Part shown: positions 6,726 to 55,875 of the stretch, one piece after another
Layout of the letters: each line of letters begins with the position of its first letter
How positions within the stretch are numbered: the first letter of the stretch is position 1
NCBI GenBank assembly: GCA_030374765.1
Contig: JARGXX010000025.1
Coordinates: forward strand, 620,001 to 684,000
DNA length: 64,000 bases
Source of the DNA: Agarophyton chilense
Lineage: Eukaryota > Rhodophyta > Florideophyceae > Gracilariales > Gracilariaceae
Direction: 5' to 3'
The notes under the pieces: generated by a model
Databases searched by the model: none
Told to the model about the DNA's origin: nothing
What the model saw: only the letters and a program-made list of their open reading frames with translations
Translations under genes and position numbers: made by a program

Positions 6726-6770
6726 AGAGTGGTGCGAAATGCAAGCACACTGCAATCCAGGTAAAATACA

Positions 6771-8880: not shown

Positions 8881-8941
8881 CTACAACTGCCCCATTGCTT
8901 TTAAAGTAAAATGTCATGAACCAAGCTCACCATACATTTCA

Positions 8942-20965: not shown

Positions 20966-21880
20966 TGTGGAGCAAAACCCAGCGACGGGAAGTGCTCTCA
21001 AGGTGTTCGAAGCCTTGCTCCCTGGGGGGAGGCAGACTCAGAGACAGAGCCCTCCGTTCCACCCGTAGTGTGGGGTGTAGCTCCCACGGGGGATTCCGAC
21101 AGTACCGACGGAGGTGAGGGGTAGAAACCGTTGGATCGGGAATGGGTATGGGTATCCCAAAGAATGGGGGAAAATCCGGCGAAGAGGAAAAACGGGGCGA
21201 GGGTCGGGCACTAACAGGCACCGGACCCGAGAACCAGAAAAGGGGCGAAACAACAAAAGAAACCCAATACAGGGGCGAAAACCTGTCCTCGAAAGGAAAC
21301 ACAAAAAGCACGCAACAAGTAAGCAGAACCCCCACGGGGTATCGTGCACGCAGGTCGTCTGAGCGGTCCCAAGGGGGTGGTTGCACGGAACCCAAACGTG
21401 GGCACTCTCCAAGTGGAGTCGTGTCCCTACGCAGGCGTTGCTAACCAGAGCCCGTTCCGGGTTGTAAGGCCGAAACGATGGCGACGAAGAACCTCTAAAG
21501 GTATCGAAGACCAACCTTGGTTACCATTTACTCTGAGCTTCGGACTGTCAGATCTCATCTCCCTAAGTAGGGCCCACTAACTAAACTCTACAGTAGTCCA
21601 CACCTGCTCAGGGCCATACACGTGGAGATCCAACTGTCATGGCCCAAAAGTCCAACGTTCTACAAATATCCGAAATTCGGTGCCAAAATTAAGCCACGTG
21701 TATCACGGGGCCAATCCAACCATGGGCCATCCGAATTTTCCCTTATAGGCGAAATATAACCGGAAAACAGTGCCACCTCAGCACACCTTAGAGGGGATCA
21801 TAATCATAACCCTCGGAGGGTTCAATCTTCATTCTATGAGTTGCATCTTCAAGTATCCCCTGACTGGGCGTTGCTCTACA
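20966..21880 (-). repeat. Element B 3' LTR
   Basis: On the plus strand it begins TGTGGAGCAA and ends TTGCTCTACA, so as an LTR (minus sense) it runs TGTAGAGCAA to TTGCTCCACA with short inverted ends. It is about 99 % identical by eye to 31814-32729. It interrupts the Tc1 foldback on its outer side. Confidence 0.93.
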
Positions 21881-21895: not shown

Positions 21896-21922
21896 GACGA
21901 GGAAGAACATTCCGAGCCGCGG

Positions 21923-23818
21923 GTGTCTAACTTTCCGATCACTATACATAGTTCTCTCCCAATAGGGTCCTTCACCACTTCTGAGGATCGCCACAAAACC
22001 GGCACATCGGTACAACTTTCTTCTACTCCTCCGACTTTCGGCGATAAGCAACTTCTCGCAACAGCGGTCTCAACCAGCCCTCTCAAGGGAATGAACCCAT
22101 ACGTCATCAACCCACTCTCGGGGCCATTGGCCTCCGCGCCGGCGGACAACGAAGCTCCCCAGCAGGGTGGATATTTATCCAGTTTGGATGCGGCTCCGTC
22201 AGGTACCGAACCTTCCGCCTCGGCGGGCAACCGACATCCTCAGGAGGATTTGAACATCACCGCGGTGGCGTGGAACTCCGCTCATGCGATGCCCTTGGTA
22301 GCAAACTCCAGAGGTTGGATCTCAAACGAATCCTTTCGAAGGTGGAGTCCCCTTACCGATCCGGTGATATATTCCCGCGCTCCGTGGTTCCATCCGACAG
22401 CGGTTCGCGACGATGAGCTCATCGACTTCTACGTGGAGGACGGCTTATTGCCGGGTGGCCTACCTGTTGAGGTTGTACGTTCTCCCGATTGGAGGGCGCG
22501 GGTACCCATAGAGCCTCAGTATCTATACCGCAGTCGCGGGGAGTCCCTGGACAAGGCGCGCGCAGCGATGGCGGCTCCGGCCTACCAGCAATTGGAGAGG
22601 TCACGCTTTGACCATCTGGTTCCCCCGGAGTACGGGTTCGATGTCGCCTATTACCGCACGTACGGTGAGGTCTCCTACGGGGATAACCTGGCAGCCTTTC
22701 CCGAAGCCGAGTTCCGCGGCCCGGGTTTTCCTCTCCGAGAAGATATGCTCCAATGGAGTCGTCCCATCCTTCGGGCTGAATTCAGGTACCTTCAGCGGCA
22801 GTTTACCCAATATGGGTTCGATCGACGCGTGCGCTTCGAGCGCCGCTCGCGCTCCCGTTTCGGGTTCCTTGTCCCGTATCCTCACGTGGAACTGGAGCGT
22901 ATCCGTAACACGGCGAAGTTTGGGCGATTTGTGCCCCTTCCAGCTTGGTGGAGTAAGGTCGAGGTCCCCCGAGGGTGCTTTGCTGAACTGCCCCCATGTA
23001 TCTACTATATCGGGTCTCGTTTGATGCACGACCCGAACTCGGGATACTGGGCCCTCGTTGCAGCCGAGTGGGCAGCCCGCGTAGCGGCGCACCTCCTCTG
23101 GGATGCTCATGACCATTTCCGTATCCGGTATATTCCTCCGATGCTACGGACCATCATGCGTCAGATCGACCTTGTCCCAGCGTTGGGTTCGGCCAGCAAC
23201 GTGCAGGACCTGTATCCAATCTTGGACGTGATCGACAACACCCAATGGGATCGAGTTCCAGTGGCAAATCAGCCCGCAGGGGAAGGATCCGCGCGAGACA
23301 AGTCTCCTGGCCGGTACGATCCGGGCTCCGGTAACTGGGTCTATTACAATCCCTTCGAAGGGGTTCGCATCAGCGCGGCGCAAGCACGGGCGCTGATTGA
23401 CTCGCCTCGACCGATGCCGGTGGGACAATCGACGGGGTTCATTTATACCGACGATTACGAGTACGAGCCTCTAGTAGACCTGGACGATCCAGCTTTGGAT
23501 AACGAAGTGCCAGCTCCTAGTGGAGTACTCCCTGTGGAGCCATCTGCACCCTTCCAACCAGTGGGAACGACCTCAGCTGCGGTGGCGAATGCATCCGGTG
23601 GCGGTCCATCTGCTCCCCCCGGGTGGGGTGTGAACACCCTTACGCAGGCGCCGGTTGCCACTCCGCAAGCGGATAGTGTGCGACAAGGCCTCGTGAACGC
23701 AGGCATTCCGATTCCCCCGGGTATGACGGATGTGAGCCAGATGTTGGCTTTCGCCTCGGCGTACCATCAGGGTCAGAATCCCAACGGTGGGGCGGGTCCC
23801 TCCTCGGGCTTTCCGTAG
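21923..23818 (+). CDS. Antisense accessory ORF of element B (unknown protein)
   Basis: An open frame of 631 codons on the strand opposite to gag-pol, between the chromodomain and the 3' LTR. The frame opens with GTG 42 bp inside the LTR; the first ATG is at 22091 (575 residues, MNPYVINPLSG). The peptide is Pro/Ser-rich at both ends. The core at about residues 150-440 contains RAPWFHP, RPILRAEFRYLQRQ, RSRSRFGFLVPYPHVELERIR, PAWWSKVEVPRGCFAELPP and EWAARVAAHLLWDAHDHFR. The C-terminal part has NWVYYNPFEGVRISAAQARAL. All of these recur in the antisense ORF of element A, and the last also in element C. No signal peptide, clear membrane helix, zinc site or enzymatic motif is seen. Plant LTR elements are known to carry antisense additional ORFs in this position, but I recognise no homology. 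Expression would need an antisense LTR promoter. Confidence 0.75.
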   Translation: MSNFPITIHSSLPIGSFTTSEDRHKTGTSVQLSSTPPTFGDKQLLATAVSTSPLKGMNPYVINPLSGPLASAPADNEAPQQGGYLSSLDAAPSGTEPSASAGNRHPQEDLNITAVAWNSAHAMPLVANSRGWISNESFRRWSPLTDPVIYSRAPWFHPTAVRDDELIDFYVEDGLLPGGLPVEVVRSPDWRARVPIEPQYLYRSRGESLDKARAAMAAPAYQQLERSRFDHLVPPEYGFDVAYYRTYGEVSYGDNLAAFPEAEFRGPGFPLREDMLQWSRPILRAEFRYLQRQFTQYGFDRRVRFERRSRSRFGFLVPYPHVELERIRNTAKFGRFVPLPAWWSKVEVPRGCFAELPPCIYYIGSRLMHDPNSGYWALVAAEWAARVAAHLLWDAHDHFRIRYIPPMLRTIMRQIDLVPALGSASNVQDLYPILDVIDNTQWDRVPVANQPAGEGSARDKSPGRYDPGSGNWVYYNPFEGVRISAAQARALIDSPRPMPVGQSTGFIYTDDYEYEPLVDLDDPALDNEVPAPSGVLPVEPSAPFQPVGTTSAAVANASGGGPSAPPGWGVNTLTQAPVATPQADSVRQGLVNAGIPIPPGMTDVSQMLAFASAYHQGQNPNGGAGPSSGFP

Positions 23819-24862: not shown

Positions 24863-25408
24863 ACGTGTGCCACATAAATGCGCGGGCGGCGGTTACCACT
24901 CGGCAAGCAGATGTGAGGTGGCGCTTTCGGCACGCGCTAGCACTCTCCTGAGCTGTCCCCGACGGGTCTCACTCATTTCTTTCCCATTCCTGAGGGTTCC
25001 AATGTCTCCATAGGAGTTCCTATTCCCATTCCATAACGGAGAGCCAAATTTGGTCAACCTCGTCGTCGAGATCTTCCCCGTGCGGGTCCGCTGACACAGC
25101 TCGTTCCCGAGAAAGCGGGGTTTGAGTGTGCGACACCTCAGTGTCTCTTCCGCGGCGGCGGGTGATCGTCGGCTCTGTAGGCGTTCCGGGTGCGGAGTTC
25201 TCCACACGACTCTCCCTAGGCGGGTTTTCGTCATCTTTTCTGACGTCGTGCTCGGCTGGGTCGGCGGTGATGTCGCTACCCATACGCTGGGGTTGTGAGT
25301 TCTCTGTCGCCGGCTCGGTCGGGCTCGCCGTCTCACTGTGAGAACTAGATTCCCTGTTAGGGCGACTGGCTGACGCCGAAACATCGTCCTGCGAAGGAAC
25401 TAAGTCCT

Positions 25409-25422
25409 CCTCCCCCTCCTTA
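25409..25422 (-). promoter_or_regulatory. Internal polypurine-tract copy (linker), element B
   Basis: Minus-sense TAAGGAGGGGGAGG matches the 3' polypurine tract of the element except for one base at its end. It lies in the pol linker, where it encodes K-E-G-E. It could act as an additional plus-strand primer or be chance codon usage. Confidence 0.4.
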
Positions 25423-28400
25423 GGCGGAGAGCCAGGAGGCTTGATTACCTCCGGTGGGGGAGTAACTCTGTAAGAGTTCGTTGGCTGGGCCCTTGAGGGA
25501 GCGGGCCCAGGTTCGGGAGTATCCGAAGGTTCCGGTAGGTCGGTTAAACCACGTTCCGGGTGCGGAAGTATAACGGGGCGGGTGTTCGAATCCCCGCCTG
25601 ACGGGTTAACTCCCGTTGAATTATTCCCTGTGGAGGGCGTTGGTGCCGACACCACTTCCACACTTGGGTTGGGGGCTCGTGTGATGCGGTCCCTGGAGAT
25701 CCGTTCGTGGCAGTTAGCGATATCCAATACCACCGTGTCCGGGTCTACAGAAACCACACGATAGGGTCCGTCCACAATTGGCGAAAGCTTGTGCCTACGT
25801 TCCTTTTCAGGATTGTAGTATTCTTTTCGAAGGAAGACGAAGTCGTCGGGCTCCACCTGAGGTAGAGGTTTGCGAACCCGATTGTCAAAGTCCTTCTTGT
25901 AGGCGCGTTGAGCTTTTTCCCTTGCTTTCCGGGCTATCGGCACCATCTTCGTAAGCCACTCCTTCCAGGCTTCTCGGTACAATCCCGGTGACGGGTACGT
26001 CGACAGCGTCCGTTGAGCCTCGATGGCGACCGGCGGCGGTGTCCTCGACAGTACCCGTTCAAATAGGGATAACGATGTAACCCGATGTACCTGGGTGTTG
26101 TATGCATACGTGATAGCGTCTGTGTACAAGTCCCAATTTTTGGGGTGATCCGCAACAAACGATCTCAAAGCGTTGAGTATCGTGCGGTTAAACCTCTCCA
26201 CCTGGCCATTCCCCTGAGGGTGATACGTAGTAACAAATAAATTCCTTACATCAAGGATTCGACATACATCCTGAAAGAACTTTGATGCGAATTGCCCTCC
26301 GTTGTCGGATAACAACTGCACCGGCGGTCCATATACGAACACCCAATGGGTCACGAATGCTTGCGCGACGGTAGCGGCGGTGATCCGCTTCAGCGGCACA
26401 GTTCTCGTTAGCTTAGAGAATCTGTCAGAAATGACAAGCAGATACCGATGACCTCGGGGCGTCCTGATAAACTCCCCTAGGATGTCTATGGCCACGAAAT
26501 CGAGTGGAGCCCGTGCCGGGAACAGCGTCAACTTCTTAGAGTGCTTCCGAAGTTTGACGTCATTCTTGGCGCAATTGGCGCAGGCCCGTCTGACGGCGTA
26601 ACAATTGAATGCCATTGCCGGCCAGTAAAAGACCCTTCTCAACGTGAGGTACAGTTTTCTTCCCTCGGAATGGTCGCCAACCTTCACATAGTGAGTGAGG
26701 TGTAATACCCTCTGTTGTAGGTTGTGCGGCACCACTATCCTCGGGCGAGGTCCAACGGTCCTGATTAGGTAACCCTGATCGTCGTCCTCGAAAGGTAACT
26801 GAAATCCTCCGTTGAGGCGAGCCCGAATCCGTGTACAGAATGGGTCGAGCTGTTGCTCGCGTATCATCTCCTCTGGAGAGATAGGTAGAAAAGAGCCGGT
26901 CGGTGAATCCAGACTCTTGTTGACGAGTATATCGTTACAAACATCATCCGTCAGCGGTTGAGCTCCTCCCTCGAGGTCCGATACCATAAAACATGGGATG
27001 CCATCGTCCTCGTAGGGTTCCGTTTCCGCTGTGGTTCCCAAGCGGGAAAGAGCATCAGCCTGAGTGTTCAGCTTCCCTTTCTTGTATAGGATCTCAAAGT
27101 CGAATTCCGACAGTCGGAGACGCCAGCGCATAAGGCGGCCCGAGGGTTCGGAGATCTCCAGGAGCCAACGCAAGCATGCGTGGTCCGTATGGACTTTGAA
27201 ACGAGTACCCATCAGGTAGGGGCGAAGTGTAGCTAAGGCCCACACAACGGCTAAACATTCTTTCTCGGAGACCGAGTAGTTCCTTTCATGGACATTCAGG
27301 GAACGTGACCAGTACCCAATAGGGTGACTTTCACCATCCTTAGAGGATTGTAACAGTGCATACCCTACTTGGTTTGCACTAGCATCGGTGTCCACTTCGT
27401 AAGGGAGCCCAGGATTGGGTAGAGCCAAGATTGGCGGTGATGTCACGGCATTCACCAGTGCCGTGAAGGCAGACGCTTCCGCGTCGCCAAAAGGTTCCAG
27501 TTCAACTGGTTGTCCCTTCGTCAGGAGTCTGTTGAGGGGGGTGGCAATATCCGCAAAGTTCGGGACGAATCGGCGATACACGTTACACAGACCTAAGAAG
27601 GATCGCAACTCCGTTTGAGTTTTCGGGTGTTTTGCTTCCTTCAAGGATTTCACTCGTACTTCATCGATTGAAAGCTGTCCGGGACGGATGATATGACCCA
27701 GATACTTAACCGAATCGGTGAAAAACTCGCACTTCTTGAGTTTCAAGGTGATTCCCGCGTCGCGGAGTATCTTCATTACGTCCCTGACGTATTCGAGGTG
27801 TTCATCCAGGTTGTTGGAGAAGACAATAATGTCTTCTAAATACACTAGACACGTCCTCCACTTGAAGGGAGCCAACAGAATGTCTATCGCCCGTTGAAAC
27901 GTTGCGGGGGCATTTGTCAACCCAAAAGGCATCCTCCGGAATCGGAAAAGTCCTTGATGACACACGAAAGCCGTTTTGTCTCGATCTTTCTCCCTAATAG
28001 GGACTTGCCAGTAGCCCGAATTGGCGTCGAGGGTAGAGAAAACAGTAGCGCTCCCAAGGGAGTCGATGTATTAGTCCATCCGAGGGATCGGGTACACATC
28101 CTTAATGGTTACCTCGTTCAGGCGTCTCTAATCGATGCAGAAACGCCACGATCCATCCGGTTTCGGAACTAACACCACTGGTGAGGCCCAAGCGAACTGG
28201 GCAGGTTCAATTACGCCCGCTTTAAGCATCTTCTCCACCTGAGATTTCTCCTCTTCCCGAGCTTTCGGTCCAGCCCTGTAAGGGTGTTGGGCAATAGGCC
28301 GAGTGTTCGGTAACAAGTCGATGCGGTGTTCTGTAATCCCAATAGTTCCAAGGGAACCATCCCACATGGGGGTAAATTCACGAAGCATGTGCCTCAGCTT

Positions 28401-31793: not shown

Positions 31794-31811
31794 TTCTAAG
31801 TCGGGAGACCA
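31794..31811 (-). promoter_or_regulatory. Element B primer-binding site
   Basis: Minus-sense TGGTCTCCCGACTTAGAA starts 2 bases inside the 5' LTR. It is complementary to a tRNA 3' end finishing ...GGGAGACCA. Identical in elements A and C. I cannot name the tRNA. Confidence 0.85.
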
Positions 31812-31813: not shown

Positions 31814-32729
31814 TGTGGAGCAAAACCCGGCGACGGGAAGTGCTCTCAAGGTGTTCGAAGCCTTGCTCCCTGGGGGGAGGCAGACTCAGAGACAGAGCCC
31901 TCCGTTCCACCCGTAGTGTGGGGTGTAACCCCCACGGGGGATTCCGGCAGTACCGACGGAGGTGAGGGGTAGAAACCGTTGGATCGGGAATGGGTATGGG
32001 TATCCCAAAGAATGGGGGAAAATCCGGCGAAGAGGAAAAACGGGGCGAGGGTCGGGCACTAACAGGCACCGGACCCGAGAACCAGAAAAGGGGCGAAACA
32101 ACAAAAGAAACCCAATACAGGGGCGAAAACCTGTCCTCGAAAGGAAACACAAAAAGCACGCAACAAGTAAGCAGAACCCCCACGGGGTATCGTGCACGCA
32201 GGTCGTCTGAGCGGTCCCAAGGGGGTGGTTGCACGGAACACAAACGTGGGCACTCTCCAAGTGGAGTCGTGTCCCTACGCAGGCGTTGCTAACCATAGCC
32301 CGTTCCGGGTTGTAAGGCCGAAACGATGGCGACGAAGAACCTCTAACGGTATCGAAGACCAACCTTGGTTCCCCTTTTACTCTGAGCTTCGGACTGTCAG
32401 ATCTCATCTCCCTAAGTAGGGCCCACTAACTAAACTCTACAGTAGTGCACACCTGCTCAGGGCCATACACGTGGAGATCCAATTGTCATGGCCCAAAAGT
32501 CCAACGTTCTACAAATATCCGAAATTCGGTGCCAAAATTAAGCCACGTGTATCACGGGGCCAATCCAACCATGGGCCATCCGAATTTTCCCTTAGAGGCG
32601 AAATATAACCGGAAAACAGTGCCACCTCAGCACACCTTAGAGGGGATCATAATCATAACCCTCGGAGGGTTCAATCCTCATTCTATGAGTTGCATCTTCA
32701 AGTATCCCCTGACTGGGCGTTGCTCTACA
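31814..32729 (-). repeat. Element B 5' LTR
   Basis: Second LTR copy, 916 bp, with the same inverted ends as the copy at 20966. It drives minus-strand gag-pol transcription. The right flank (AGCAA) does not match the left flank of the element. Confidence 0.93.
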
Positions 32730-33746: not shown

Positions 33747-34540
33747 TGTAGTGCAACGCCAAGGGCGGCGAAAACACACGAAGATGTCCGAGTCTTCCTC
33801 CAAGGAGGGTAGCGCGGCGACGGAACCTCTCCGGAGTGAACACGACTAAGTCGGGGTGTAAGGCCGAGGTTCACCGGCACGCCAAGCGGGGAGAGTGCGG
33901 GATGCTAGAAGGGAGCAGACCAGGTATGAGCTGTATTCCAAGAGAGTGGGCAAGTGATAAAGGGGGGACCACCCAGTGGGGGCGATCGGGGGCATGGGCC
34001 CCGAGAGCCAAAAGAAATATGTAGCAAACCCAATACTGGGGCGAGAACACGGCAGTGGTATGAAAGATATACACGCTAACAGCGGTGAGTCTCCTGTTGA
34101 CGCAGGGTGGATAAGTCTACCGTTAGTAACGCGGTTTCACCTCCGTAGAGTGTGGAAGACTCGCGAAAGCGGAAAAAGACTTAGAGCCAAGAACCCTGGT
34201 TGGGGAGGTTTACTGAGTGTCAGGGCGAGGTCGCCCTGGCACTATATAGTGTAGAATACTGTAGAGAGCTCCCTAACCTAGTGTAATAAAGCTAAATAAA
34301 TAGAGAAATATCCAGCTATGCTGTGCCAACCTGTCCTGGGCCACCCGTGGTACACGTGGGTAAGTCACACCCGAATCGGGGCCACGGCGCACGGCAGCCG
34401 GTGCACTTTGCGTACAACGCGTATACACCTGGCTACGCCAGCCCGCTAGTAGCGGTACTACTCATAGATCTCACAAGTATCGCCCGAGGCGGAAAAACAA
34501 CCAAGTCCTGGAAAACGGCCCTCACGAGGGTTGCACTTCA
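33747..34540 (-). repeat. Element A 3' LTR
   Basis: 794 bp; on the plus strand TGTAGTGCAA to TTGCACTTCA. Minus-sense ends are TGAAGTGCAA and TTGCACTACA. Nearly identical to 43496-44289. Confidence 0.95.
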
Positions 34541-34555
34541 TATCCCCCTCCTGAG
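34541..34555 (-). promoter_or_regulatory. Element A polypurine tract
   Basis: Minus-sense CCTCAGGAGGGGGATA immediately precedes the 3' LTR start. Confidence 0.8.
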
Positions 34556-34575
34556 GCGCGAGTACGACATCCGCG

Positions 34576-36513
34576 ATGGTAGGCGACGCGCCGAGACGAA
34601 TGCATAAGAGTGCAACCAGCTCGCTGGGATCCACGTCATCGGATGCCAACAATCGCAGTGCGGCAAAACTCCAGTCTCCTGGCAACAACCGTTCTCAACG
34701 TTCCATCTCAACCGAATCCGCATCCTTGCGTGCCAGTCTTCCGATTCCTCGGCATCGTCTCCCGCTTCGCCGGTCTCCTCTTCCGGTCATCCGGCCTCTA
34801 CGCTCCCCGATGAGCAACCAAAACAATCAACCCAACCGTTTCCCTGCGGGGTACCTCTCCGGCTTCCGGTCCGCTCCGCTTCCGCAAAGCGCGTCATCGG
34901 CTGCGCCGCAGATTCCTATCGCGAACGCGGCTGCTGCTCCGTACGGAATGTTTCCCGCGAGAGGGTGGCCGCCATACGACATGCTTGTCGGGCGCCATCC
35001 TGGCCATCATGCGTCCGTTCTCCGGCTTGCGCCGTGGTTCCACCCGATTGCGGTGTTAAACGAGGCGCTCATAGCGATGTACACCGATGGAAACGGGATG
35101 CGTCCGGGAGATATTCCGGCCGTGGCGACAACTTCGTTGGATTGGCGACGCCGCGTAGCGGTTCCGGTCCACGCTGTGGCGCACCGGGGTAGTGAAACCT
35201 CGGCTTCCGCTCATGCGGCCTTCGTCCTTCTTGGCCATCAACGGCTTCGCCGGGCTCCTTTCGAATATCCCATCCCCGATGGTCTCGGCACCGACATTCG
35301 GCTTTACCGCACTCAAGATGAGATTGGTTACGTCGACCGCCTGGCGGGTTTGGAAACACTCTCGTGGAGGGGCATCTCGATAGCACGGCAAGAGGCCATG
35401 TGCTGGACGCGACCGATTATCCGGGCAGAATTCCGCTACATGCGTCGACTTGCGCGGGCCAACTTCCTCGCCATGATCCGCTTCGAGCATCGAGCACGAT
35501 CCCAATTCGGGTATTTGGTCCCGTATCAGAACGTGGAGATCGAACGCCTTCGCGTGGCCGACCGACGGGGTCGCTATGTCCTCATTCCACCGTGGTGGTC
35601 GAACCTCGAGGCCTGCCGGGGCTGTTACATCGAGCTGCCACCAGTCATCACGTATTACGGTTCGTACCTCATCGAGAATCCAGAGTCCGGACTGTGGTCC
35701 GTGGTGATTACCGAATGGGCAGTCCGCGCGGCGGTGTTCATTTTCTGGGAGGTGTATGACCAGTACAGACTGTGGTTCCTCCCGTTCCGGTTGAGGTCCG
35801 CGATTCGCAGCCTGGACCTGAGCATCCCACTTGGTGGAGTAACCAACGCCGAGGAAGTGGCGGGTCTTCTCGATTACATCGACCAGTTGGACTGGACCAC
35901 CGTTCCGATTGAACAAAGCGGGCGCGCCGTGGGTAGCCGGGGTCAGGACCTGTCACCAGGAAGGCGTACTCCCTTGGGAGGTGATTTCGTATACTTTGAC
36001 CCTTGGGAAGGGCACAAAATCTCCGCGGAGGAAGCGAACGAACTCCGGTTTGCACCGCGCCATATCCCCGAGGGGCATCCGATCGGTTTCGTGGACGCGG
36101 ATGAATATTACCACGTCTACGACGGCGACGATCCAATGGTGGACAACAAACCCGACGACGGGGAAGCGTACACCGAGGCGGAGGTCGAGGGATCCGAAGC
36201 GGAAGGTCCCTCTAACGCAGGGACGCCAGCCACGCCTTACGCGGATTTGGATAACCCCGCGGGGGCTGGGTCGGAGTACGCGGTAGCTGGACCACCTCCG
36301 GTTCCACGGGTGAATCTCCCAAGTGGTGGGGTGTCCGCTCCAGGCGATGCGAGCTCCGCTCCGGCGGGTCAAGCGGCCGTGATCTCCCAGTTCCTGTGAC
36401 AGGTGGGGCTGGGGACCAACGCAGCGAGTGGCGATGTTGCCGCGATGCGCGAGGCCTTGATCACCCGCCTCCAGGGAGGTAACCAACCCGGGGGCGGTAA
36501 GCCGAACCCGTGA
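34576..36513 (+). pseudogene. Antisense accessory ORF of element A (one in-frame stop)
   Basis: Starts at ATG 34576, 36 bp inside the LTR (a second in-frame ATG at 34810, MSNQNNQPNRF, matches the homologous N-terminus better). It is open for 607 codons to a TGA at 36397-36399. The frame then continues for 37 more codons to TGA 36511-36513, and this continuation resembles the ends of the B and C proteins, so the first TGA is probably a recent nonsense change. Conserved blocks shared with B are APWFHP, RPIIRAEFRYMRRL, RARSQFGYLVPYQNVEIERLR, PPWWSNLEACRGCYIELPP, EWAVRAAVFIFWEVYDQYR and DFVYFDPWEG. The N-terminal GFRSAPLPQ recurs in C as GFRSVPLPQ. Function unknown; no nucleotide-binding, protease or membrane-fusion feature is visible, which argues against an envelope gene. 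Confidence 0.75.
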
Positions 36514-39500
36514 CGGGGCACGCGATCCCGATGGGGAGTTTCCCTTGTGACTTAGGGTAGTATCTCGAGTGCTCGGTATTCCATCGATAGCTTCAAATAA
36601 AAACCAAGTGACTTGTGTAACCCAAAACCTTCCTTCACTAGTCTGTTCTCAAGCAAACCTACTTCTCTTTTCTCTTCCACCGAGGTGGGTGTTATCCCAC
36701 CTGGGCTTTAACAACCGATGCCGGGATTCCCGTCCGCGTTCTGCGGTGATATGACACCACCTTCGAACGTGGGAGATGTTCCATCAGCTCATCCGAATCC
36801 CATTCGGGCCCTAAACCGTACCAACGGACGAGGTATTGAATATAACCATCCGGATAGTATGAGTGCTCCACTATGTGGTCGACCACGAACTCCTTCTCGT
36901 AGACTTCCTGCCCTTGCGGTGTACGCGTCACCGGACCAAACCGGTGTACGTCCGCAGGTGCGTGTGGGCTACTGTGCCCTTCCCCCGAGGGGTCCATGGG
37001 TTGGCGTTGCCTTTCCATGCCCTGGGTAGGGGAACGAACCGGGTTCCGGGTTCCCTTGGCCGCTTGGCGGGTTGCTTCCGCCAAGGCGTCATGACGAAGA
37101 GCGTCAGTTCGACGGCTTCGGCCGGAGGCCTTCCCGTGGGGCAATTCTCCCAGTTTTTGGGTCGGAATGCTTTCCGAGAGTTCTCGTGCAGAGGCCACCC
37201 TTCGGGGGAACGCGGACTCATCCCAAGGCTGGGTTTCGCGGTCGCGTTCCGCGAGTCGTCGAGGTGAAATCCGTCGCGACGGTGCTGGACTTGACGCGGG
37301 AGGCGGTTTCATCACGGGGCGTCGTGCCTTGCCGGGTGAGCCGCCTTGGGCGTTGATTGGCGTATCTCCCGAGCCGGGTGTCGTCTGGTCACGTGATACG
37401 TCCGGCTGATGGCTGGTAGTACTCCGCACAGTGCTGCGTTCGGCCTCGTCACGTGAGGGCGTGTGAAACGGCGCTGCCGGTATGTCTGCTCGCTTTGGCG
37501 ACACAGTACCGCGACGGGCGTGCAAATCCGGGTCAACCGTGCCTTCCTCACCAACGGGCGGCGAAGTGCGCGGCGAGGAAACCCTGCGGGGAGCGAGTTC
37601 GTCCTCAACTATCCCTTTCGAGGGTTCAACTTTACTCGGCGACGAGGTGCTTCCGTCCTTGACGGGCACATTCTCCGGGGTGACCGGGGCGCCTTCGACA
37701 ACGCTATCGGGGTCAACCGAGACACTCGGAGTGCGTCCGCCACTGGGCGCGGGTTATGAACCAGCATCAAGCGTGCTGGGTGTGAATCTCCCGTCTACTA
37801 CGGTGTGCTTGCCCGGCTTAGCCGGTGTGTCCTGCCGTACAGTACGAGGGACCACTTCTGATCGATTCGGCCTAGAGGGGCCTGCGAGGGCGTTCTCTAA
37901 GTTTTCCAGCGTAGCTGGTGTCGACGAACCGTGACCCACGGGCTGCGGGTCAACGCTCGACGGCCTAGCCGGTCCAGTATCGCGAGGGCGAACAGCATCC
38001 TGCGACGATTTCGGTTTCGCTTCGGCGAGAGGGTTTCCACTACGTGGTGCGTCCTGTCGAGTAGAGTCCCCGTGGGGAGTGCGATCAGACGCAGATGCGG
38101 TGGCGCTTCCCATAGAGGGTTCAGCAACGGCTGTAGCGCGCAAATGTGGAGATGGCACGTCGGTAGACGGGACGTCCGGGTCACCGTTGTTCTTTCTGGT
38201 GTGTCCAGGAGTCCGTGCACCACGGTTGCCATGACGCGACGAAGCGGTTTCCGTCTCTCGACGAGAGTTATGAGCCTCCTCCTTCTCCTGAGACGGAGCG
38301 GCATGGGGAGTGGTTGAAACGCCCAACGGGCGGGGGTAGACACCGCGCCGTGGCGTGAGAGAAGAGAGGCTATTCTGGCCTTGGTTTGATAAGATCGGCA
38401 AGTCAGAGAGTCCCAGGGTAGGGTGTGGTAACGCAGAAGGTCTGGAAACCACGGCAGTGGGCTGAGCCACCGTTGTGTGCCGAGCACCATCATCCTCAGA
38501 GAGGGATTGTTGACCCATTTCGGTTACTTCCAACGTCGGTGGCGGGGATTTCTCTGAATCGTCTGAGACGAGCAATGCGTCAATATCATCATCCGATTTC
38601 GGGCTTTCGTTCCATTTATCGTGTAACCAATCCGGGTTTCCCGGTGTTCCATCGTCTACGACGAAGCAAGGTATATCCTCGTCATCGACGGCTAGAGCTT
38701 CCCCATTCGTGGGTAAACGCGAGAGCGCGTCCGCTTGCGCGTTCTGAGTGCCCTTCTTGTAGATCACTTCAAAGTCATATTCCGCGAGGCGGAGTCTCCA
38801 ACGCATTAAGCGGCCCGACGGCTCCGAGATGGTCATAAGCCATCGTAGGGACGAGTGATACGTGTAAATGGTAAAGTGCACACCCATGAGGTAGGGGTGG
38901 AGTGTAGAGAGGGCCCACACTACTGCAAGGCACTCCTTCTCCGACACGGAGTAGTTCCGCTCGTGGACATTGAGCTAGCGTGAACAGTACCCAATAGGTT
39001 TGCGTTCTCCTTCGGGAGTAGTTTGAAAGAGCGCACAGCCTACCTGGTAGTCGCTAGAGTCCGTGTCCACGGAAAACGGTAGTCCGGGTTTCGGTAACGA
39101 TAGAATCGGTGCTGATGTGACAGCCTCCCTAAGGGAGTTAAAAGCATCCGTCTGGGCGGACGTAAAGGGGTCCAGTTTAGGTGGTTGACCTTTCCGCAGA
39201 AGCGCGTTCAAGGGGGCCGCGATGTCAGCGAAGTTAGGGATAAACCGTCGGTAGACGTTGACCAATCCTAGAAAGGAGCGCAGTTCCGTCTGGGTAGCGG
39301 GTTCTTTCGCCTTGCGAAGGGACCTCACTCGAGCTTCCTCGATCATTACACGTCCAGGACGGATAATGTGCCCGAGATACTTCACAGTATCGGTAAAGAA
39401 CTCACATTTCCTCAGTTTGAGGGTTATTCCAGCGTCACTTAGCGTGGTCATTATGTCCCTGACTTGGGTGAGATGGTCATCCAGATTGTCTGAGAATACG

Positions 39501-40220
39501 ATGATATCGTCCAAATAGACGAGGCAAGTACGCCACTTAAAGCGGGCCAACAAAATGTCGATAGCACGCTGAAAGGTAGCGGGAGCATTGGTTAGACCAA
39601 AAGGCATCCGTTTAAAACGGTAGAGTCCCGAGTGACAGACAAACGCAGTCTTATCTTGGTCCTCCTCCCTAACGGGAACCTGCCAATATCCCTAATTGGC
39701 GTCCAAAGCCGTGAACACGGTAGCAGTGCCGAGAGAGTCGATGTACTCATCCATTCGTGGGATCGGATACACGTCCTTGACGGTAACATCATTCAAGCGA
39801 CGGTAGTCGATGAAAAAGCGCCAGGACTCATCGGGTTTTGGAGCCAGTACCACTGTGGATGCCCACGGCGACTTAGCCGGTTCGATCACTCCAGCTTGGA
39901 GCATTTTTTCCACTTGGAACTGTTCCTCTTCTCGAGCCTTGGGGCCTGCCCTGTAAGGGTGTTGAGCCACGGGTCGGGTGTTCGGCAATAAATCTATCCG
40001 GTGTTCCGTTGTATTTATCTCACCAAGAGAGCCATCCCACATTGTGGTAAACTCCCGTAACATCTCACGCAGACTTTCACGGTGTGACTCCGGTACATGA
40101 CCGAGGTCGAGTTCCTCGAGTTCTTTCACGGGGTCTACCCGGTTGTAACTCGTCGGAACGGGCTTCTTTTCTGTTTCGGCAGGTTGCGATTCCGAATCAT
40201 TCGGTGATTGGACGGCAGCT

Positions 40221-43495: not shown

Positions 43496-44289
43496 TGTAG
43501 TGCAATGCCAAGGGCGGCGGAAACACACGAAGATGTCCAAGTCTTCCTCCAAGGAGGGTAGCACGGCGACGGAGCCTCTCCGGAGTGAACACGACTAAGT
43601 CGGGGTGTAAGGCCGAGGTTCACCGGCACGCCAAGCGGGGAGAGTGCGGGATGCTAGAAGGGAGCAGACCAGGTATGAGCTGTATTCCAAGAGAGTGGGC
43701 AAGTGATAAAGGGGGGACCACCCAGTGGGGGCGATCGGGGGCATGGGCCCCGAGAGCCAAAAGAAATATGTAGCAAACCCAATACTGGGGCGAGAACACG
43801 GCAGTGGTATGAAAGATATACACGCTAACAGCGGTGAGTCTCCTGTTGACGCAGGGTGGATAAGTCTACCGTTAGTAACGCGGCTTCACCTCCGTAGAGT
43901 GTGGAAGACTCGCGAAAGCGGAAAAAGACTTAGAGCCAAGAACCCTGGTTGGGGAGGTTTACTGAGTGTCAGGGCGAGGTCGCCCTGGCACTATATAGTT
44001 TAGAATACTGTAGAGAGCTCCCTAACCTAGTGTAATAAAGCTAAATAAATAGAGAAATATCCAGCTATGCTGTGCCAACCTGTCCTGGGCCACCCGTGGT
44101 ACACGTGGGTAAGTCACACCCGAATCGGGGCCACGGCGCACGGCCGCCGGTGCACTTTGCGTACAACGCGTATACACCTGGCTACGCCAGCCCGCTAGTA
44201 GCGGTACTACTCATAGATCTCACAAGTATCGCCCGAGGCGGAAAAACAACCAAGTCCTGGAAAACGGCCCTCACGAGGGTTGCACTTCA
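43496..44289 (-). repeat. Element A 5' LTR
   Basis: 794 bp, paired with 33747-34540. Followed by the target duplication AAGGC at 44290-44294. Confidence 0.95.
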
Positions 44290-46111: not shown

Positions 46112-46827
46112 TGTAGTATTCTACTATGTCGGGAAATCCGATAGGTTCGTTTTTCGCGAAGTCGCGGTTGGAACTCATAAGTGAGTGATATCATCAGCAT
46201 TGTGATATGAAACGGCATCCCGCATAAGATGCCTAGAGGCAGAATGTCTTAGTGGAACACGTGGCGTCATGGGTCGAGTGGCTTACCACGGCGCGCGCAT
46301 AGTTGCGACCCGTCCTAGGGGAATGCCATATTGGCAACGGCGCATGTAGTGGCGATCCACGTGGCTGGCTTTATTACCCTTTGTAGCTAGATGTCCATTA
46401 GGGACCGTACCCATACAGTGGTTTGGCTAAGTGGCTGACCACTGGGTATTATTTATATATTTATTTGGTCACTCACCCTGGTACACAGTATATAGTGTAC
46501 CAGAGGTGAGCGCCGACTCCAAGTAAAGGAGACAACATAGGCATCATGACTATTCTGTTCCTCGCTTAGGATTCCTTAACCGGAGATCAGGACGAGCCAT
46601 AATAGATAGTCAGCCCCCAACTGCTTCACGAGCCGTCTCGTACCTACGTTCCTTCAACGTTTTACAGTTGCACTGTTCATCCTGGCTGGCGAGTAGTGGC
46701 CTTACACCCCACTTCCAGCTCGCTGGTGTTCTAGCTCTACCACCCCTTTTCTTACGCCGCAAGCGACCCATCGGCAGTCCGAACGCTGTCGCAGGTGTCT
46801 GCTCTCTCCGTTAGAGCGGATACTACA
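46112..46827 (+). repeat. Element C 5' LTR
   Basis: 716 bp, TGTAGTATTC to GATACTACA. Contains an AT-rich TATATATTTATTTGG segment near 46450 that could serve as a core promoter. Relatives occur at 225-464 (fragment) and 62096-62810 (solo). Confidence 0.93.
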
Positions 46828-47042: not shown

Positions 47043-49196
47043 ATGCCGAAGACCCGAAGTCAGTCGAGTACTGGTCGCCCTGGTCCTGCGGGACCACCCC
47101 CGAAACCGAGGCTCTCCTCATCTGTTGAAGCCGGAGAGCGGCTGTATCGTCAAGCGATGTCGCGCTCACGCTCGGTGAATGATGAACGAGATCTCTCCGA
47201 TGTACCGGCCCCTGTGGCAGCGGCAGTCACGCCCACCACAGAAGCCGTAGTCGACCCTGAGGTCGTCGGACCTCAAGAAGAGGATGATTTGCGCAGGGAA
47301 GTGTGTCGTCTCAAGTCTGAGTCAAGCGCTCCGCGTGTGCGCATGGTTGCATTGGAATCGCAGATCGCTGCTCTTATCGCTGATGTCGAACAATTACGCA
47401 GTGCGCATGAAGCACTCCTTAGTCAAGACGATGGGAAGCAGGTCTATGCATCAGTGAAAACACTATGAGAGGATTTGAACCATCTACTGGAGAGGTACGG
47501 GAATACGCCCGATGCGATACCCGGCTTAACCGTGGATGTAGAGGAAGTCCTCACTCGAGCTAACCCTCGTTTAGAACGCCTGAAGGCGGCAGTTCATGCG
47601 CAGACTGCTGCTAAGCCAGTGGCGTTGGAAGAGGAAGGAGCTCCTTTGAAGGAAGCTCGTTCGAAGAAGTCGAAGTCATGACGTAAGAAGCGGAAGTCCG
47701 CACATGATTCGAGTGATGAATCGTCAAGGACGGAGGGTTTCAGTTCCAGTACTGATTATTCTGATAATTCAGATACGTCAGATGACGACGACAGTGATGA
47801 TGGTCATCGAAGGGCCCGATCTCGGAAGAAGAACACGTCTTCGTGGATAATGAGAAAAAAAGGCTCACCTTACAGAGGATTGAAGGTGCTCCCGTGCCTG
47901 AATCCGCTTTACCGGAAGCTCTTGAATTACAGGTACTACCTTCTGAAGGTGGAGAGCAAGAAGAGCTCAGGACGCAAAACCGCGAAGGTGAAGGATCACA
48001 TCAAACGATTGAAGATCGGCCTTCATAATTTAACATTTGATGGGAAGACCCCCATTCTCGTTATCGAGTTTCTCACTCGATTCGTTGCCGAAGCAGACAC
48101 TCTAGCGATAAGTGAACCACAGGCATTTGTGTCTTTACCACACTTCCTGAAGGGTTTTGCTTTAGAGCAATATCGTTCCGTATGCGGATCATTGACAGCA
48201 GATGAAGGCGGCGCTACCTCATGGCCAGAGGCGGTGCAGTATTTGCTGCGCAGTTACGCGACTTCAAACGCGAAACGTCAGGCGATCCTGGACCTAAGAG
48301 ATGTGACCCAAAAGCATTAAGAGGGCGAAGCTGAGTACAGCTCAAGGCTTAACAAAGCTTCAATCCGCTGTGGAAACGTCCACTCGACGGAGGACAAGAT
48401 TACCTTGTACATCGACGGGCTGGATCCGAGCATCAAGTCGTTGGTAGCTCGATATCAAGAGAAGCATGGAAGAGTCTTCTTTTTGGAGTTAGTTCAGTTT
48501 GCGAAAGCTGAAGGACACCCGGCCAGAGCGCGTGGTAGCCACCGTCGTTCAGTGGCTTTTGGAACCTCAACGGGTAAGGAGAAGATCTCCGCCAGAGTTA
48601 ATCAGCGCAGCAAACTGCTACATCTGGATTCTCCAGTGCACTCACGAGATTCGTCGTTGGAACCCAAAGGAAGTGACTCGCATGAGGAGGCGGTCCATTT
48701 AATGGAATATACGGACTCTTCTGTACCTACAGTGGATCTCCCACACTCGGAGTCTCAGGACGAGGAAGCCCTAATGGCTATGGAGGGCCGTTGCCCTATG
48801 TACCGTCCCTACACGGTGCCTTCACAAGGAGGTTTTAAGAACGGGAAGCCCGGATGGGTGAATACTCGCACGGCATACCGTTCACAACCTATGCTGACCA
48901 ACCGTCGTGACGGTTTGATATGTTATTCATGTTATGGAAAACATCATTTGAGTGCAGAATGCACGCTTCCTGCAAAGGATCTGAGTCGTATCATAACGAA
49001 TTATGAAGCAATCTCAGAAGAGGAAAAGAGCCGCGTACCGGCGGGCATGTATTGGAAGGCCAAAAGTTGGTTTTCTCAGACACTAATGCGCCGGACGGAC
49101 AAGCCGGTTGCTCAGAATGCTGAAGTGTTACAACCCGGAACCCCGGTAGGAAGAGGTGCCTTTCAGGCGAATAAGCCCGTGCAACCGGAAAACTAA
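47043..49196 (+). pseudogene. Element C gag with three nonsense codons
   Basis: A single frame of 717 codons from ATG 47043 (MPKTRSQSSTGRPG) to TAA 49194-49196, interrupted by TGA 47466-47468, TGA 47679-47681 and TAA 48318-48320, without a frameshift. The order equals element A gag: Pro/Arg-rich start, helical segment (VRMVALESQIAALIADVEQL), Ser/Asp/Lys-rich stretch, capsid-type region (NPLYRKLLNYRYYLLK, PILVIEFLTRFVAEADTLA, AVQYLLRSYATSNAKRQAIL) and zinc knuckle CYSCYGKHHLSAEC. It ends P-E-N-stop, overlapping the pol frame by 22 bases. Confidence 0.9.
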
Positions 49197-52100
49197 GTGA
49201 GGGAGCCCCTAGGGGATTGGCCCTATTCGATCCCGTAGTGCTGACCAGGGAGAGCTCGCCTCCCTGCTCCCGCGCTGGGAAGCCCAAAATTCTCTTGAGG
49301 CCTCCCAAATTTCCGCCATACGGAATCAATCAGCCGGACGGAAAGCGATTACAGTTTGACTGTGATTTACATCGTCCTTGGAGACGTTATACTTGCCCGT
49401 CAAAACGGGAAAGTTACCTCATGGCAATGTCTAAAAGAAACTATAAGGTCTATGCCGACATCGGCTCTGACAGGAATCTGGTATCTCGTCGATTGACTAT
49501 CCTGGACAGAGGTGCTGGTCCGAACTTTATATGGGAATCGGAGCTCGCTCCTGCTGACTTAGAACGTATTCGAAACGGTTCTTTACCAGACATCCGGGAT
49601 GCCAACAAAAATGCTGTGAAGACACTGAGAACAGTTCGACTCGTGGTGCGTTTGGGACGCTTTGTAGTCCTAGTCGACTTCATCGTCTGTAAGACGTTAG
49701 CTGCACCGGTGGTACTGGGATGTGATTATTGCGACAAGTTTCTCGGAGCCATTCGCCAGCGAAGAAAACTAGTGGAACTAGATGATGGATCAATGGTACC
49801 AATTGTTCGCAAGCCAATGCGTCGTTGCCCCGAAACACCTCCACTTCCACCATCTATGGAATACGGGAAATCCCGAGGACGTGTATCGCCAAAGATTCCA
49901 GTAGCAAAGAGTGCCATGCTGAAGGCGCAAACCCAAACTTGGGTTCAAGTAAGAACAGAACGACACGGACTCGTGGAAATTCAACCGAATACTCGGATCT
50001 ACGAATCCCGTGGATTGCTAGTCGCTAACGGCATTGCTCAGGTTGATCATGGTAGCCCCTTTTGGATACTAGTGAGTAACTTCATCGATAACGATTATCA
50101 GATACCCAAGAATCAGGTTGTTGCAACAGCTTTGCCTCATCCCACAGTGGTGGTCCCTACTCATATTTCTACTGCAGAAGTATTGGGATTAACCCATGTC
50201 AGTGACACAGACGAAGAACTGCAAACTCCGTCTGGAGATCAATTGCAAACGGCAAAGGATCCAGAGAGCCTGGTCGATGAGCTAGACTTAGCACATGTGT
50301 CGGAACACTACAGAACGCAGATCAGGTCTATGCTTAAGAAGTATACATCCATGTGGAGTGGAAAACTGGGAGAGATCTCCGCTACGGAACACCACATTGA
50401 TTTGGTCCCAGGGTCACGACCCATCTCCCAACTACCCTACAGAGCGGGACCGCGAACTCGCCAAATCGAAGAGGAGAATGTCAGCAGAATGCTGGAAGAA
50501 GGAGTAATCGAAGCAGCTCAATCTGCTTGGGCCTCACCAGTAGTGCTGGTCCAAAAACGTGATGGTTCCTTACGATTCTGTATCGATTATCGAAAACTGA
50601 ACGCAGTTACAGTTCGGGATACATACCCGTTGCCTCGAATGGACGAATTTATTGACAGCTTAGGAGAAGCGAACGTGTTCACCAATTTGGATGCCAACTC
50701 CGGCTATTGGCAGGTGCCTGTAGCAGAAGAGGACCGAGATAAAACCGCATTTGCGTGTCACACCGGTCTCTACCGTTTCAAAAGGATGCCCTTTGGCTTA
50801 ACGAATGCACCGGCGACTTTCCAGCATACTGTGGACATCTTGCTCTCAAGATACAAGTGGAAGACTTGTTTAGTCTATTTGGACGATGTGATCATCTTTT
50901 CCCAGGATGTGGAAAGCCATTTACGGCATGTCGAGGAGATCCTCAAAGCACTACAGAGCGCAGGTATCACCTTGAAGCTCAAGAAATGCGAATGGTTCGC
51001 TGGCACCATCCGGTACTTAGGACATGTGATCAAGCCTGGACAGCTTGCCATTCAAGAGGCACAAACAGCGGCTCTCCGCGAAGTACAACCCCCGTCGACA
51101 CAGAAGCAATTGCGTTCTTTCCTCGGCTTGTGCAACGTCTACCGACGATTCGTGCCGCGATACTCGCATATAGCGGCACCGCTCAACGCAAAGCTGCGTA
51201 AAGGGCAACCAGTACAGCTGGAACAATTCAGACAAGCTGAAGGGGAAGCGTTCGAAATGCTGAAGACAAAGATTATTACAGCCCCAGTCTTGGCGCTACC
51301 CATCCCCAACCTGCCATACTCAGTGGATACCGAGTCTAGCGAGTACCAAGTAGGGTGTGCCCTTTTTCAAACACACCCTGATGGTGAACGCAAACCCATT
51401 GGTTACTGGTCAAGATCGCTGAACGCAGCTGAGAAGAAGTATTCAGTTTCAGAAAAGGAATGCCTTGCAGTCGTTTGGGCTCTAACCACATTGCGACCGT
51501 ATCTCCAAAGAGAACGTTTTACAGTCAACACGGATCATTCGTCTCCACGATGGTTACCGTCCATTACAGACCCGTCTGTTCGTCTCACACGATGGCGCTT
51601 ACGCCTTTCTGAATTCGATTTCGAATTGAAGTATAAGAAGAGATTGGCCAATGTCCAAGCTGACGCACTATCGCAACTCAAAACACTGGGCGAAACCCAA
51701 GGCGAAATCGATGAAGAGATACCTTGCTTCTACATGGAGACCCATTCACCATCTTTTGAAGAAAAGGAACAAGAGACCCTTGATGATTATTCGGATGCAG
51801 AACCGTTCCTTGCATTAGCAGACACTGACCCTTCAGTTCAACTCGAGCGAATCTCGTGCACTGAGCTCCTCAATGAACAACACGCCGATACGTTTTGTGC
51901 GTCGATACGCTCTCGTCTTATCGGGGGGGAGGAGCTCCCCTTTCCACTTGATTCACGAGGAATACTGTTAAGACATGTCGAAAAGCATGATCAAATCGTG
52001 ATTCCACACGTCTTGAAGAGTCGAGTACTCCATCTGGCACACTACAGCAGGCTGTCTGGTCACCGAGGAGGAACGAAGTTTTTCATGACTCTAAGAAGAG

Positions 52101-54023
52101 ATTTTTGCTGGCCTACTTTGGCAATGGACTGCCATGGTACAGTGAGTTTGTGTACAACATGTGCGAAGAATTGCGTGAAGCTTTACAGGAAGCGGAAACC
52201 GATGACGTTATTCCAGGCGAAAGCGCCTTTACAATACGTCATTATCGACATCCTAGGGGAATTGATTCGCTCAAGGCGAGGTTATCGCTACCTATTGGTA
52301 ATACCCGACCGCTTCTCGAAGCTAATGCGGACTGTGCGGCTGAAGTGGATAACCGCAGCCGTAATCACACAGGCGTTTATCAAACACCGAATATTTATAT
52401 ACGGACCACCAGAAGTTCTGTTATCAGATAATGGGAAGCAATTCGTTGCGAAGTTGTTTTAGAATGTTTACCGCATTATGGGCATTCGAAACGTGTTTAC
52501 TATGACCTATCATCCGCAATGCAACGGTCAGGTGGAGCGCTTCAACCGCACGCTGATAGCAGCATTACGACGCTACATCGCGGACCACCCGAAAGAATGG
52601 GACATTTTTACAGATACTCTGTGCTACGCGTACAATACGCAAGTGCATACCTCTACAAAGACGGCAACGTTCAACCTCGCGCTCTCACGTAACCCTCCGG
52701 TTTTACCGGTTGCGCTCGACGACGATACAGAATTGGACGCGCCGACCCCCGCTAAGTACCATCTGAAGTTGAGGAATGACCTGAAGGCCAGAGCGGAAGA
52801 AGCCGCTAAGGAGTTATCAAAGACGCAAGCTCGCTTTAAGCGAAACTATGGCGCCAGAAGGCGAAGAGGAAATCCGGCAATCCGAGTAGGAGGTCACGTC
52901 TTCGCGCGAGTCGAAAGACCTGAAAAACAGGAAACATCTCGTCATAAGTTGTTGCCGATAGCGGCTGGACCCTTCAAAGTGGTGAACCTTAATGAAAACA
53001 GAGTGGTCATCAAGACAGGTGAGGACGTTGAACGTGTATCGCGCGATCGCATTGAAGTCGCGACTGACCCGCAAGTGAAAGTCCAGGTATCCGGTAGAAC
53101 TAAGGAGGCAAGTGCGACGGAACGTCAAGGCAAAAGCCCAAGTGACTCTGGAGAGAGTGAACCGCCACCAATGGCTCGGGCGGAGGAGAAAGCTCCTGAT
53201 CTCCTACCGCCGGCGGTTGCGTACGCCAATCACGGACAGCTTCCGAAGTATCGGGATATGCCACGTGGCACACGCACACCCGTAAGTACAGAACTGGAAC
53301 CTGGAAGCAGGAAAAATGTTTTGAACTTTGGCCCCAAGGACTTGGAAACGAGTGCACGCGAAAACGCGCCGTTGCCGCTTCAGGCTGAACCGTCAGGTTA
53401 AGCGTCACTCGCTGTTCCGCCGATATCGGCTCCCATCCCTCGTGGGCAGGAAGAAGAAGAGATATCGCTTCCTGTCGTGGTGCAAGCACCATCGTCCACC
53501 GAACAGCGGTCAGAATCGGATAAACCGAAGGAAGTTCATCCACGAATGGAATTGAGAAGTAGCAAGAAGTACGCTTCTATGGAACCAGGAAAACAGGAAA
53601 ACAGGATAGCTCTTTATCTGAGAAAGGTTCTCAAGGAATGAGTACACTGCCCCTGCGGGCAGAACGACAGTTAGTCGAGGAGCGAACGCTTAGCAACGCG
53701 GAGACTGCTAACACAGAGACGCTTGGGTCAGCCCTAAGGCATTTCAAACCTGTTAACAGGAGTCTCACGCCAACAGCGAAAGCATTGGGAAACGTCCAGA
53801 AATATGTTATGGATCGCATATGTGAACATGGCGAGCATGAAGATCCCAGAGAATTACTGTATCGAGTCTTTGGTACGGTTTTCTTCCGGAAGCGGATACG
53901 TGGGAACCTATAGCTCATATCCCCCGTTCGCAGCTCGTGCGATATCATCGACGCATGCAATTACCACTCCCCAGGGAGATCGACTCCTCGATAGTCGGGC
54001 TCATGGGCACATCCCATTTCTAA
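49175..54023 (+). pseudogene. Element C pol (PR-RT-RNase H-INT-chromodomain), damaged
   Basis: The -1 frame relative to gag, open from 49175. The protease motif is ILDRGAGPNFI, so the active-site D-T-G reads D-R-G. RT: VSRMLEEGVIEAAQSAWASPVV, MPFGLTNAPATF and palm CLVYLDDVIIFSQD (intact). RNase H: VDTESSEYQVGCALF, SVSEKECLAVVWAL. Integrase zinc finger LAHYSRLSGHRGG..CTTCAKN; core Asp-Asp-Glu in YVIIDILGEL, LLSDNGKQF and NGQVERFNRT, with a TAG (52460-52462) between the second Asp and the Glu. A TAA at 53399-53401 and a TGA near 53639 interrupt the linker. The chromodomain (KYVMDRICEHGEHEDPRELLYRV, then after a frameshift near 53870 LPEADTWEPIAHIPRSQL) ends at TAA 54021-54023. Confidence 0.9.
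49187..49193 (+). promoter_or_regulatory. Candidate -1 frameshift heptamer, element C
   Basis: G-GAA-AAC followed immediately by the gag stop TAA. Pol frame across the site reads G-K-L-S-E-G and stays open into protease. Confidence 0.55.
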
Positions 54024-55208: not shown

Positions 55209-55875
55209 TATAGTATTCTACTATGTCGGGGAATCCGATAGGTTGGGTTTTCGCAAAGTCGCGGTTGGAACTCATAAGTGAGTGATATCATCAGCGTTGT
55301 GATATGAAACGGAATCCCGCATAGGATGCTTAGAGGCAGAATGTCTTAGTGGAACACGTGGCGTCATGGGTCGAGTGGCTTGCAACGGCACATGTAGTGG
55401 CGATCCACGTGGCTGGCTTTACTACCCTTTGTAGCTAGACGTCTATTAGGGCCCATACCCATACAGTGGTTTGGCTAAGTGGCTGACCACTGGGTATTAT
55501 TTATATATTTATTTGGGCTTTCACCCTGGTACACAGTATATAGTGTACCAGAGGTGAGCGCCGACTCCAAGTAAAGGAGACAACAAAGGCATCATGATTA
55601 TTCTGTTCCTCGCTTAGGATTCCTTAACCGGAGATCCGGACGAGCCATAATAGATAGTCAGCCCCCAACTGCTTCACGAGCCGTCTCGTACCTACGTTCC
55701 ATCAACGTTTTACAGTTGCACTGTTCATCCTGGCTGGAGAGTAGTGGCCTTACACCCCACTTCTAGCTCGCTGGTGTTCTAGCTCTACCACCTTTTTTCC
55801 TTCGCCGCAAGCGACCCATCGACAGTCCGAACGCTGTCGCAAGTGTCTGCTCTCTCCGTTAGAGCGTATACTACA
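55209..55875 (+). repeat. Element C 3' LTR
   Basis: 667 bp; begins TATAGTATTC (the G of the usual TG is A) and ends ATACTACA, followed by target copy CATGT. A 48-bp segment present near 46290-46350 is missing. Confidence 0.92.

Follow-up and report, generated by a model that had tools for sequence, protein, structure and literature searches.

A conserved accessory gene, antisense to gag-pol, in Ty3/gypsy elements of the red alga Agarophyton chilense

Three related elements and their antisense frames

The window, a stretch of 64,000 nucleotides of Agarophyton chilense (synonym Gracilaria chilensis; GenBank assembly GCA_030374765.1, contig JARGXX010000025.1, positions 620,001 to 684,000, forward strand), contained three Ty3/gypsy elements one after another, B and A on the minus strand and C on the plus strand (Table 1). 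In B and C the reverse transcriptase (RT), RNase H and integrase followed each other in this order and were accompanied by LTRs and a primer-binding site, whereas the window copy of A was without integrase. At the primer-binding site the three elements had TGGTCTCCCGACTTAGAA in common. No target duplication was found for B. The RT-RNase H identity was 75% for A-B, 66% for A-C and 64% for B-C; between gag of A and the gag pieces found in B and in C, blastp segments matched at 33-53%, and the LTRs of the three elements aligned over short stretches only. Judged by these identities, A, B and C are related elements of one lineage. The initial annotation had described them as differing throughout gag, pol and LTR, which holds for the LTRs but not for gag and pol.

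Table 1. Features of the elements B, A and C (positions counted from the first base of the window)
Feature	Position	Strand	Remarks
Element B 3' LTR (left)	20966..21880	-	98.4% identical to right LTR
Open frame 5' of B ATG, probably untranslated	21896..22090	+	Shared changes 13 N : 4 S
B antisense accessory ORF, 575 aa from conserved ATG	22091..23818	+	Antisense to gag-pol
Conserved B core, ~308 aa, APWFHP to just before SPGR	22379..23302	+	
C-terminal helix pair of B, model residues 525-562	23663..23776	+	Predicted structure
pol of B: part of RT, RNase H, integrase	25020..28070	-	
B primer-binding-site sequence	31794..31811	-	Identical letters in A and C
Element B 5' LTR (right)	31814..32729	-	98.4% identical to left LTR
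Element A 3' LTR	33747..34540	-	
A antisense ORF, ATG 34810	34810..36399	+	
pol of A: part of RT and RNase H, two frames	37754..39691	-	Integrase domain not found in window copy
Element A 5' LTR	43496..44289	-	99.0% identical; 5-base target duplication AAGGC
Element C 5' LTR	46112..46827	+	5-base target duplication CATGT
pol of C, two frames: RT, RNase H, integrase	49175..53401	+	
C antisense ORF, internally deleted form	54324..55040	-	
Element C 3' LTR	55211..55875	+	88.9% identical to 5' LTR

Each element presented an open frame between pol and the 3' LTR, on the strand opposite to gag-pol, in the same place for all three as had been claimed at the outset. The frame was open over 640 codons in B (21896-23818, plus strand), over 614 codons in A (34555-36399, plus strand) and over 289 codons in C (54324-55193, minus strand). 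The window copies of A and C are damaged. The frame of A ended 38 codons short of the end used by 25 of the 28 copies examined, and that of C was devoid of the central core, stop-free frames of 611 codons being present in other genomic copies. Three of these 611-codon frames (L061-L063) aligned with A and B across the whole core; from this alignment, the 289-aa frame of C is an internally deleted form of the 611-aa frame.

The integrase-less junction of the window copy of A (37754-38974) appeared in three of the 40 copies listed, the window included, and the other 37 matches ended there. The antisense ORF was found at about 1.36 kb from this junction in all three cases (C95:1650301, C116:118401 and the window), with a stop inside it in one of them. 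This subtype of A has apparently multiplied, possibly in trans, and the presence of the ORF at the three junctions suggests that the gene could be useful to elements served in trans. At the end of A pol (36695-37753, minus strand) a chromodomain (PF00385) was obtained below threshold (E 0.00036; 20.8 of the 25.1 bits).

Conservation, selection and copy number

The antisense proteins of A and B were identical at 178 of 472 positions by BLASTP (38%; E 2e-100), and the identity between families ranged from 35 to 38%, thus bearing out the conservation initially seen by eye between A and B. When the pol-to-3' LTR regions were compared in six frames, with the C region taken from copy L061, the antisense frame scored best in the three pairs (331, 279, and 275 bits vs. 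166, 124, and 136 for the respective runners-up). In 13 copies of B the antisense frame presented a mean of 0.6 stops, as compared with means of 9.0 to 21.2 in the other five frames. A chance origin of the frames is excluded, and the B frame, put at about 600 codons in the initial annotation and judged there to be far longer than chance, is open over 640 codons. Identity at codon positions 1, 2, and 3 was 0.53, 0.60, and 0.33 for A-B, 0.50, 0.55, and 0.28 for B-C, and 0.51, 0.57, and 0.32 for A-C.

The dN/dS between A and B, which had been put forward initially as a check of the frame, gave an unreliable ratio because dS was saturated (NG86 dN 0.67 and dS 2.73; ML dS ~17). The constraint was visible within families. 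The best-scoring 30 copies per family by protein match were taken, of which 27 of B and 28 of A were used, 3 and 2 copies, respectively, being dropped for length difference; this choice could bias against amino-acid changes, whereas private changes were without such bias. Private changes, present in one copy, had a pN/pS of 0.91 in B and 0.93 in A, in contrast with 0.45 and 0.56 for changes present in two copies and 0.54 and 0.53 for those in at least three copies (private vs. shared, Fisher p 0.014 for B, 0.017 for A, and 0.0006 for A and B together). The rate of private nonsense changes equalled that of silent changes in B (1.01) and was a little lower in A (0.79); of 946 private changes 35 were stops, as were 2 of the 188 shared ones (p 0.07), and 15 of the 27 copies of B and 15 of the 28 copies of A had no stop in the compared stretch. 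Within the core, and with small counts throughout, the contrast was clear in B (11 N : 19 S shared vs. 125 N : 59 S private) and weak in A (24 N : 15 S shared vs. 152 N : 81 S private). Private changes presumably arose for the most part after insertion. As they were near-neutral and the shared changes were depleted in amino-acid changes, the antisense protein appears to be under purifying selection in the source elements of B and A.

Counted in the way that gave 64-75% for RT-RNase H, the antisense proteins were 35-37% identical, thus reflecting a much faster evolution of the antisense protein than of pol. By this comparison of sequences the protein is faster-evolving than pol, yet it has stayed with the element lineage.

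The start of the gene was considered from the same copies. A, B, C, and the related protein P0004 each had, in comparable locations, a Met followed by N, D, or S, and the start ATG was kept in 26 of 27 copies of B and in all 28 copies of A. Shared changes upstream of the ATG were 13 N : 4 S in B and 11 : 9 in A, and those in the N-terminus after it were 11 N : 3 S in B and 8 : 6 in A, small counts that alone do not fix the start; the stretch 21896-22090 is without constraint in B. The ATG at 22091 is the best-supported and likely start of the B gene. The distance from the ATG to the LTR edge was 210 bases in B, 269 in A, and around 170 in C. No TATA-like site near the ATG was found common to A and B; such a site occurred in 7-8 of 27 copies of B at around 147 bases and in 25 of 28 copies of A at 567 bases.

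The genome searched comprised 79.8 Mb in 135 contigs. Antisense ORFs of B type were found in at least about 110 distinct genomic places and those of A type in at least 72, whereas at least 138 match rows, several per copy, corresponded to C type. Parts of the elements were searched independently of the ORF and the results were then compared with the ORF matches listed. Among these matches, at least 21 of 40 pol tails of B had the ORF at 71-134 bases, and at least 62 of 122 C-type RTs were followed by it on the opposite strand, 1.6-3.9 kb further downstream; for the same 122 RTs, the matches listed included no ORF within 8 kb either on the same strand downstream or on any strand upstream. The frame is homologous across families, keeps its position and orientation, and is repeatedly located together with pol. 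Other copies of the families had been named at the start as a check on the ORF; it recurs in all three families, the share of copies in which it was seen being given by the two minimum counts above. In addition, P0011, a relative from A. chilense, matched this genome at 100% over 363 residues and, among the matches listed, around 30 other places at 67-79% identity; the frames of many of these were close to 600 codons, and the places were taken, from their sequences, as a fourth family, D. Four C-type places (C34:486344, C114:3493, C115:3227, and C115:49807) gave identical scores and correspond either to very recent copies or to duplicated assembly.

The antisense protein and its relatives

Eight proteins were compared in composition. 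The N-terminus was variable (40-183 aa), the core (303-317 aa) contained 9-12% arginine and no more than 2% lysine, and the tail was acidic in seven of the eight (pI 4.1-4.8), the exception being P0016 (pI 9.2). No clear membrane helix was observed in any of the eight, the highest Kyte-Doolittle mean over 19 residues being 0.93-1.60. A convincing nuclear localisation signal was not found in these proteins; short basic runs were present in five of the eight, with none in B, C, and P0013. The structural model obtained from 16 sequences (mean pLDDT 64.7, pTM 0.59) predicted disorder at both ends and a mainly helical core, with blocks scoring 72-92 (residues 81-230 and 281-390) separated by one of 54-60 (231-280). 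Two C-terminal helices were predicted at residues 525-536 and 548-562 (blocks of 66-84); the corresponding motif was visible in most members, P0013 being without it and the model of P0011 being cut there.

Nothing above cut-off was obtained in Pfam and PDB for the 16 proteins, no match in PHROGs for the four proteins scanned, and one stray match in NCBIfam (E 0.04). Below the cut-off, Pfam gave hints of E3_binding in the core of five of the 16 proteins (best E 0.029) and of Ish1 at the C-terminus of one of them (E 0.09), and no DNA-binding domain was recognised in the 16 proteins by Pfam. This is in line with the initial annotation, which had recognised no homology to any described protein. 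Its suggestion of a conserved antisense accessory gene, possibly of a new family, is supported by homology, selection, and domain searches taken together: the protein family looks new, whereas its placement is already known from plants and Botrytis.

Protein searches covered about 5.8 billion proteins and were word-limited. Two relatives were retrieved with B, the same two with the first profile, and 12 more with a profile including C; those named came from A. chilense and from Gracilariopsis chorda, the latter being BWQ96_10156 and BWQ96_08668, and the other relatives included P0004, P0010, and P0013-P0016. No relative outside the antisense-protein family was found in this word-limited set, nor were any found by the scans made of viral contigs, prokaryote genomes, and plasmids. 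In the tree of 16 proteins, A, B, P0004, and P0005 from G. chorda formed one clade (support 99/97), and P0010, P0017 from G. chorda, and six proteins from A. chilense another (99/99); the six were taken, by sequence, as C and D type, and the deeper forks of the tree were weak. Since each clade includes a protein from G. chorda, both are probably older than the split between Gracilaria and Gracilariopsis, unless elements moved between genera.

Interpretation and other features of the window

Antisense ORFs of plant LTR elements, already mentioned in the initial annotation, are indeed described. ORFs of this orientation between pol and the 3' LTR are reported for Retand, Grande, RIRE2, and PvRetro13, and in fungi for Boty, whose gene is brtn (PMC7264820). 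In angiosperm Ty3/gypsy elements the corresponding ORF, aORF-3R, is presented there as large, antisense, conserved within the family, and of unknown function, with nuclear localisation reported for gene 23 of Grande, DNA binding predicted for TRP28, and a regulatory role proposed for the proteins of Retand and Grande (PMC7264820, PMC11963269). As far as these descriptions go, the red-algal gene resembles the aORF-3R of Retand, Grande, and RIRE2 in being large, lying in the gap that separates pol from the 3' LTR, running antisense to gag-pol, and being conserved within the family; this position was found in A, B, and C, the orientation is antisense, and coding constraint was found in B and A. 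Retand proteins mostly carry PF04195 (TRP28) (PMC7264820, PMC11963269), whereas this domain was present in none of the 16 proteins examined here, and the carriers are red algae instead of flowering plants; the absence of the domain indicates that another protein family occupies this position. The gene brtn, the antisense additional gene of Boty-like elements of Botrytis (PMC7264820, PMC8365987), is comparable, by description alone, as an antisense gene in an LTR element outside plants. No antisense ORF in red-algal LTR elements was found in the titles and abstract openings of the literature searched, a coverage from which subscription papers were mostly absent.

Among retroviruses, the situation recalls that of HTLV-1, whose antisense gene product HBZ has a bZIP domain. 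As with HBZ, reading of the antisense gene would begin at the 3' end of the element; unlike HBZ, the 16 members gave no bZIP match in Pfam. The 3' LTR of HTLV has an antisense promoter, as stated in PMC7264820.

The antisense gene is almost certainly real. As to what it does, we lean, at slightly better than even confidence, toward a red-algal Ty3/gypsy lineage that carries an accessory gene in antisense, read from the 3' LTR, whose product would be a nuclear regulator or cofactor. The gene would have an antisense mRNA of its own, and the distance of ~170-270 bases between the ATG and the LTR edge suggests that this mRNA begins within the 3' LTR or immediately inside its edge. The protein would consist of a variable, probably disordered N-terminus, an arginine-rich helical core of ~305 aa, and a mostly acidic disordered linker, completed in most members by the C-terminal helix pair. 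It may act in trans in the nucleus on the transcription, genome export, or integration of the element, and its antisense placement would make its expression independent of, and competing with, the full-length sense RNA. The nuclear regulatory or cofactor role itself, which derives mainly from analogy with the antisense ORFs of plants, is possible, at rather less than an even chance. A wider account, in which the gene would have been acquired before the Gracilaria/Gracilariopsis split, independently of flowering plants and retroviruses, and would encode a nuclear regulator with an undescribed core fold, is more tentative.

A structural or particle-associated factor, such as an additional capsid, matrix, or envelope-like protein whose antisense encoding is coincidental, would fit the large core of ~305 aa and the high copy number of the families, and env-like genes elsewhere do sit between pol and the 3' LTR (PMC7264820). 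It is nevertheless unlikely: env-like genes are sense in that same source, whereas this one is antisense, no stretch of membrane-helix hydrophobicity was present in the eight proteins, and comparison with solved structures and with viral models gave no match, although a weak model can miss one. Rather improbable is also a self-limiting or host-derived restriction factor lowering copy number, such as a captured host gene. Convergent placement agrees with negative feedback on the sense RNA, and gene capture by retroelements is described in rotifers (PMC5408684), but the word-limited searches of about 5.8 billion proteins gave no relative outside the family, and no single-copy host relative was recognised among the genome matches listed.

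We give very little credence to a distant homology with TRP28 of Retand, that is, to one ancient antisense gene common to red-algal and angiosperm gypsy elements. Position and orientation are alike and the function is unknown in both, but PF04195 was not recovered at E<=1 in any of the 16 members, and the genome-wide search for it gave one match below cut-off (20.2 vs. 26.2 bits) that did not coincide with any listed ORF place. Finally, a function residing in the antisense RNA, which would silence the sense RNA with the reading frame being incidental, has precedents in non-coding antisense RNAs such as that of micropia (PMC7264820) but is already largely refuted and scarcely credible, given the frame-specific selection, the best score of the antisense frame in three of three pairs, and a protein identity of 35-38% vs. 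28-33% for third codon positions.

Antisense accessory genes of LTR elements are on record for flowering plants, for one fungus, and for some retroviruses, a regulatory role being suspected for those of plants. An additional protein family found at this position in red algae, and kept by selection according to the codon-level evidence, would speak for an advantage of the position as such, through expression independent of the sense RNA; if the product is indeed a nuclear regulator, antisense control genes would be a repeated solution of LTR elements. The copies described here provide a natural set for comparison, and a family for red-algal proteins filed as "unnamed" or "hypothetical".

Some other features were observed in the window. 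A frame of 251 codons (45361-46116, plus strand) ended right at the LTR of C which, taken with the target duplication CATGT, indicates that C may have inserted into a gene; this frame gave no Pfam match at E 0.01, and no open continuation was found on the far side of C in the one frame looked at. A unit of ~124 bases was repeated in three degenerate tandem copies at 8508-8913. Two direct repeats (1148-2293 and 19553-20698), 87% identical and 18.4 kb apart, enclosed a Helitron replicase-like and PIF1-like helicase frame (3862-8084) along with other ORFs, and possibly represent an older element with nested insertions.
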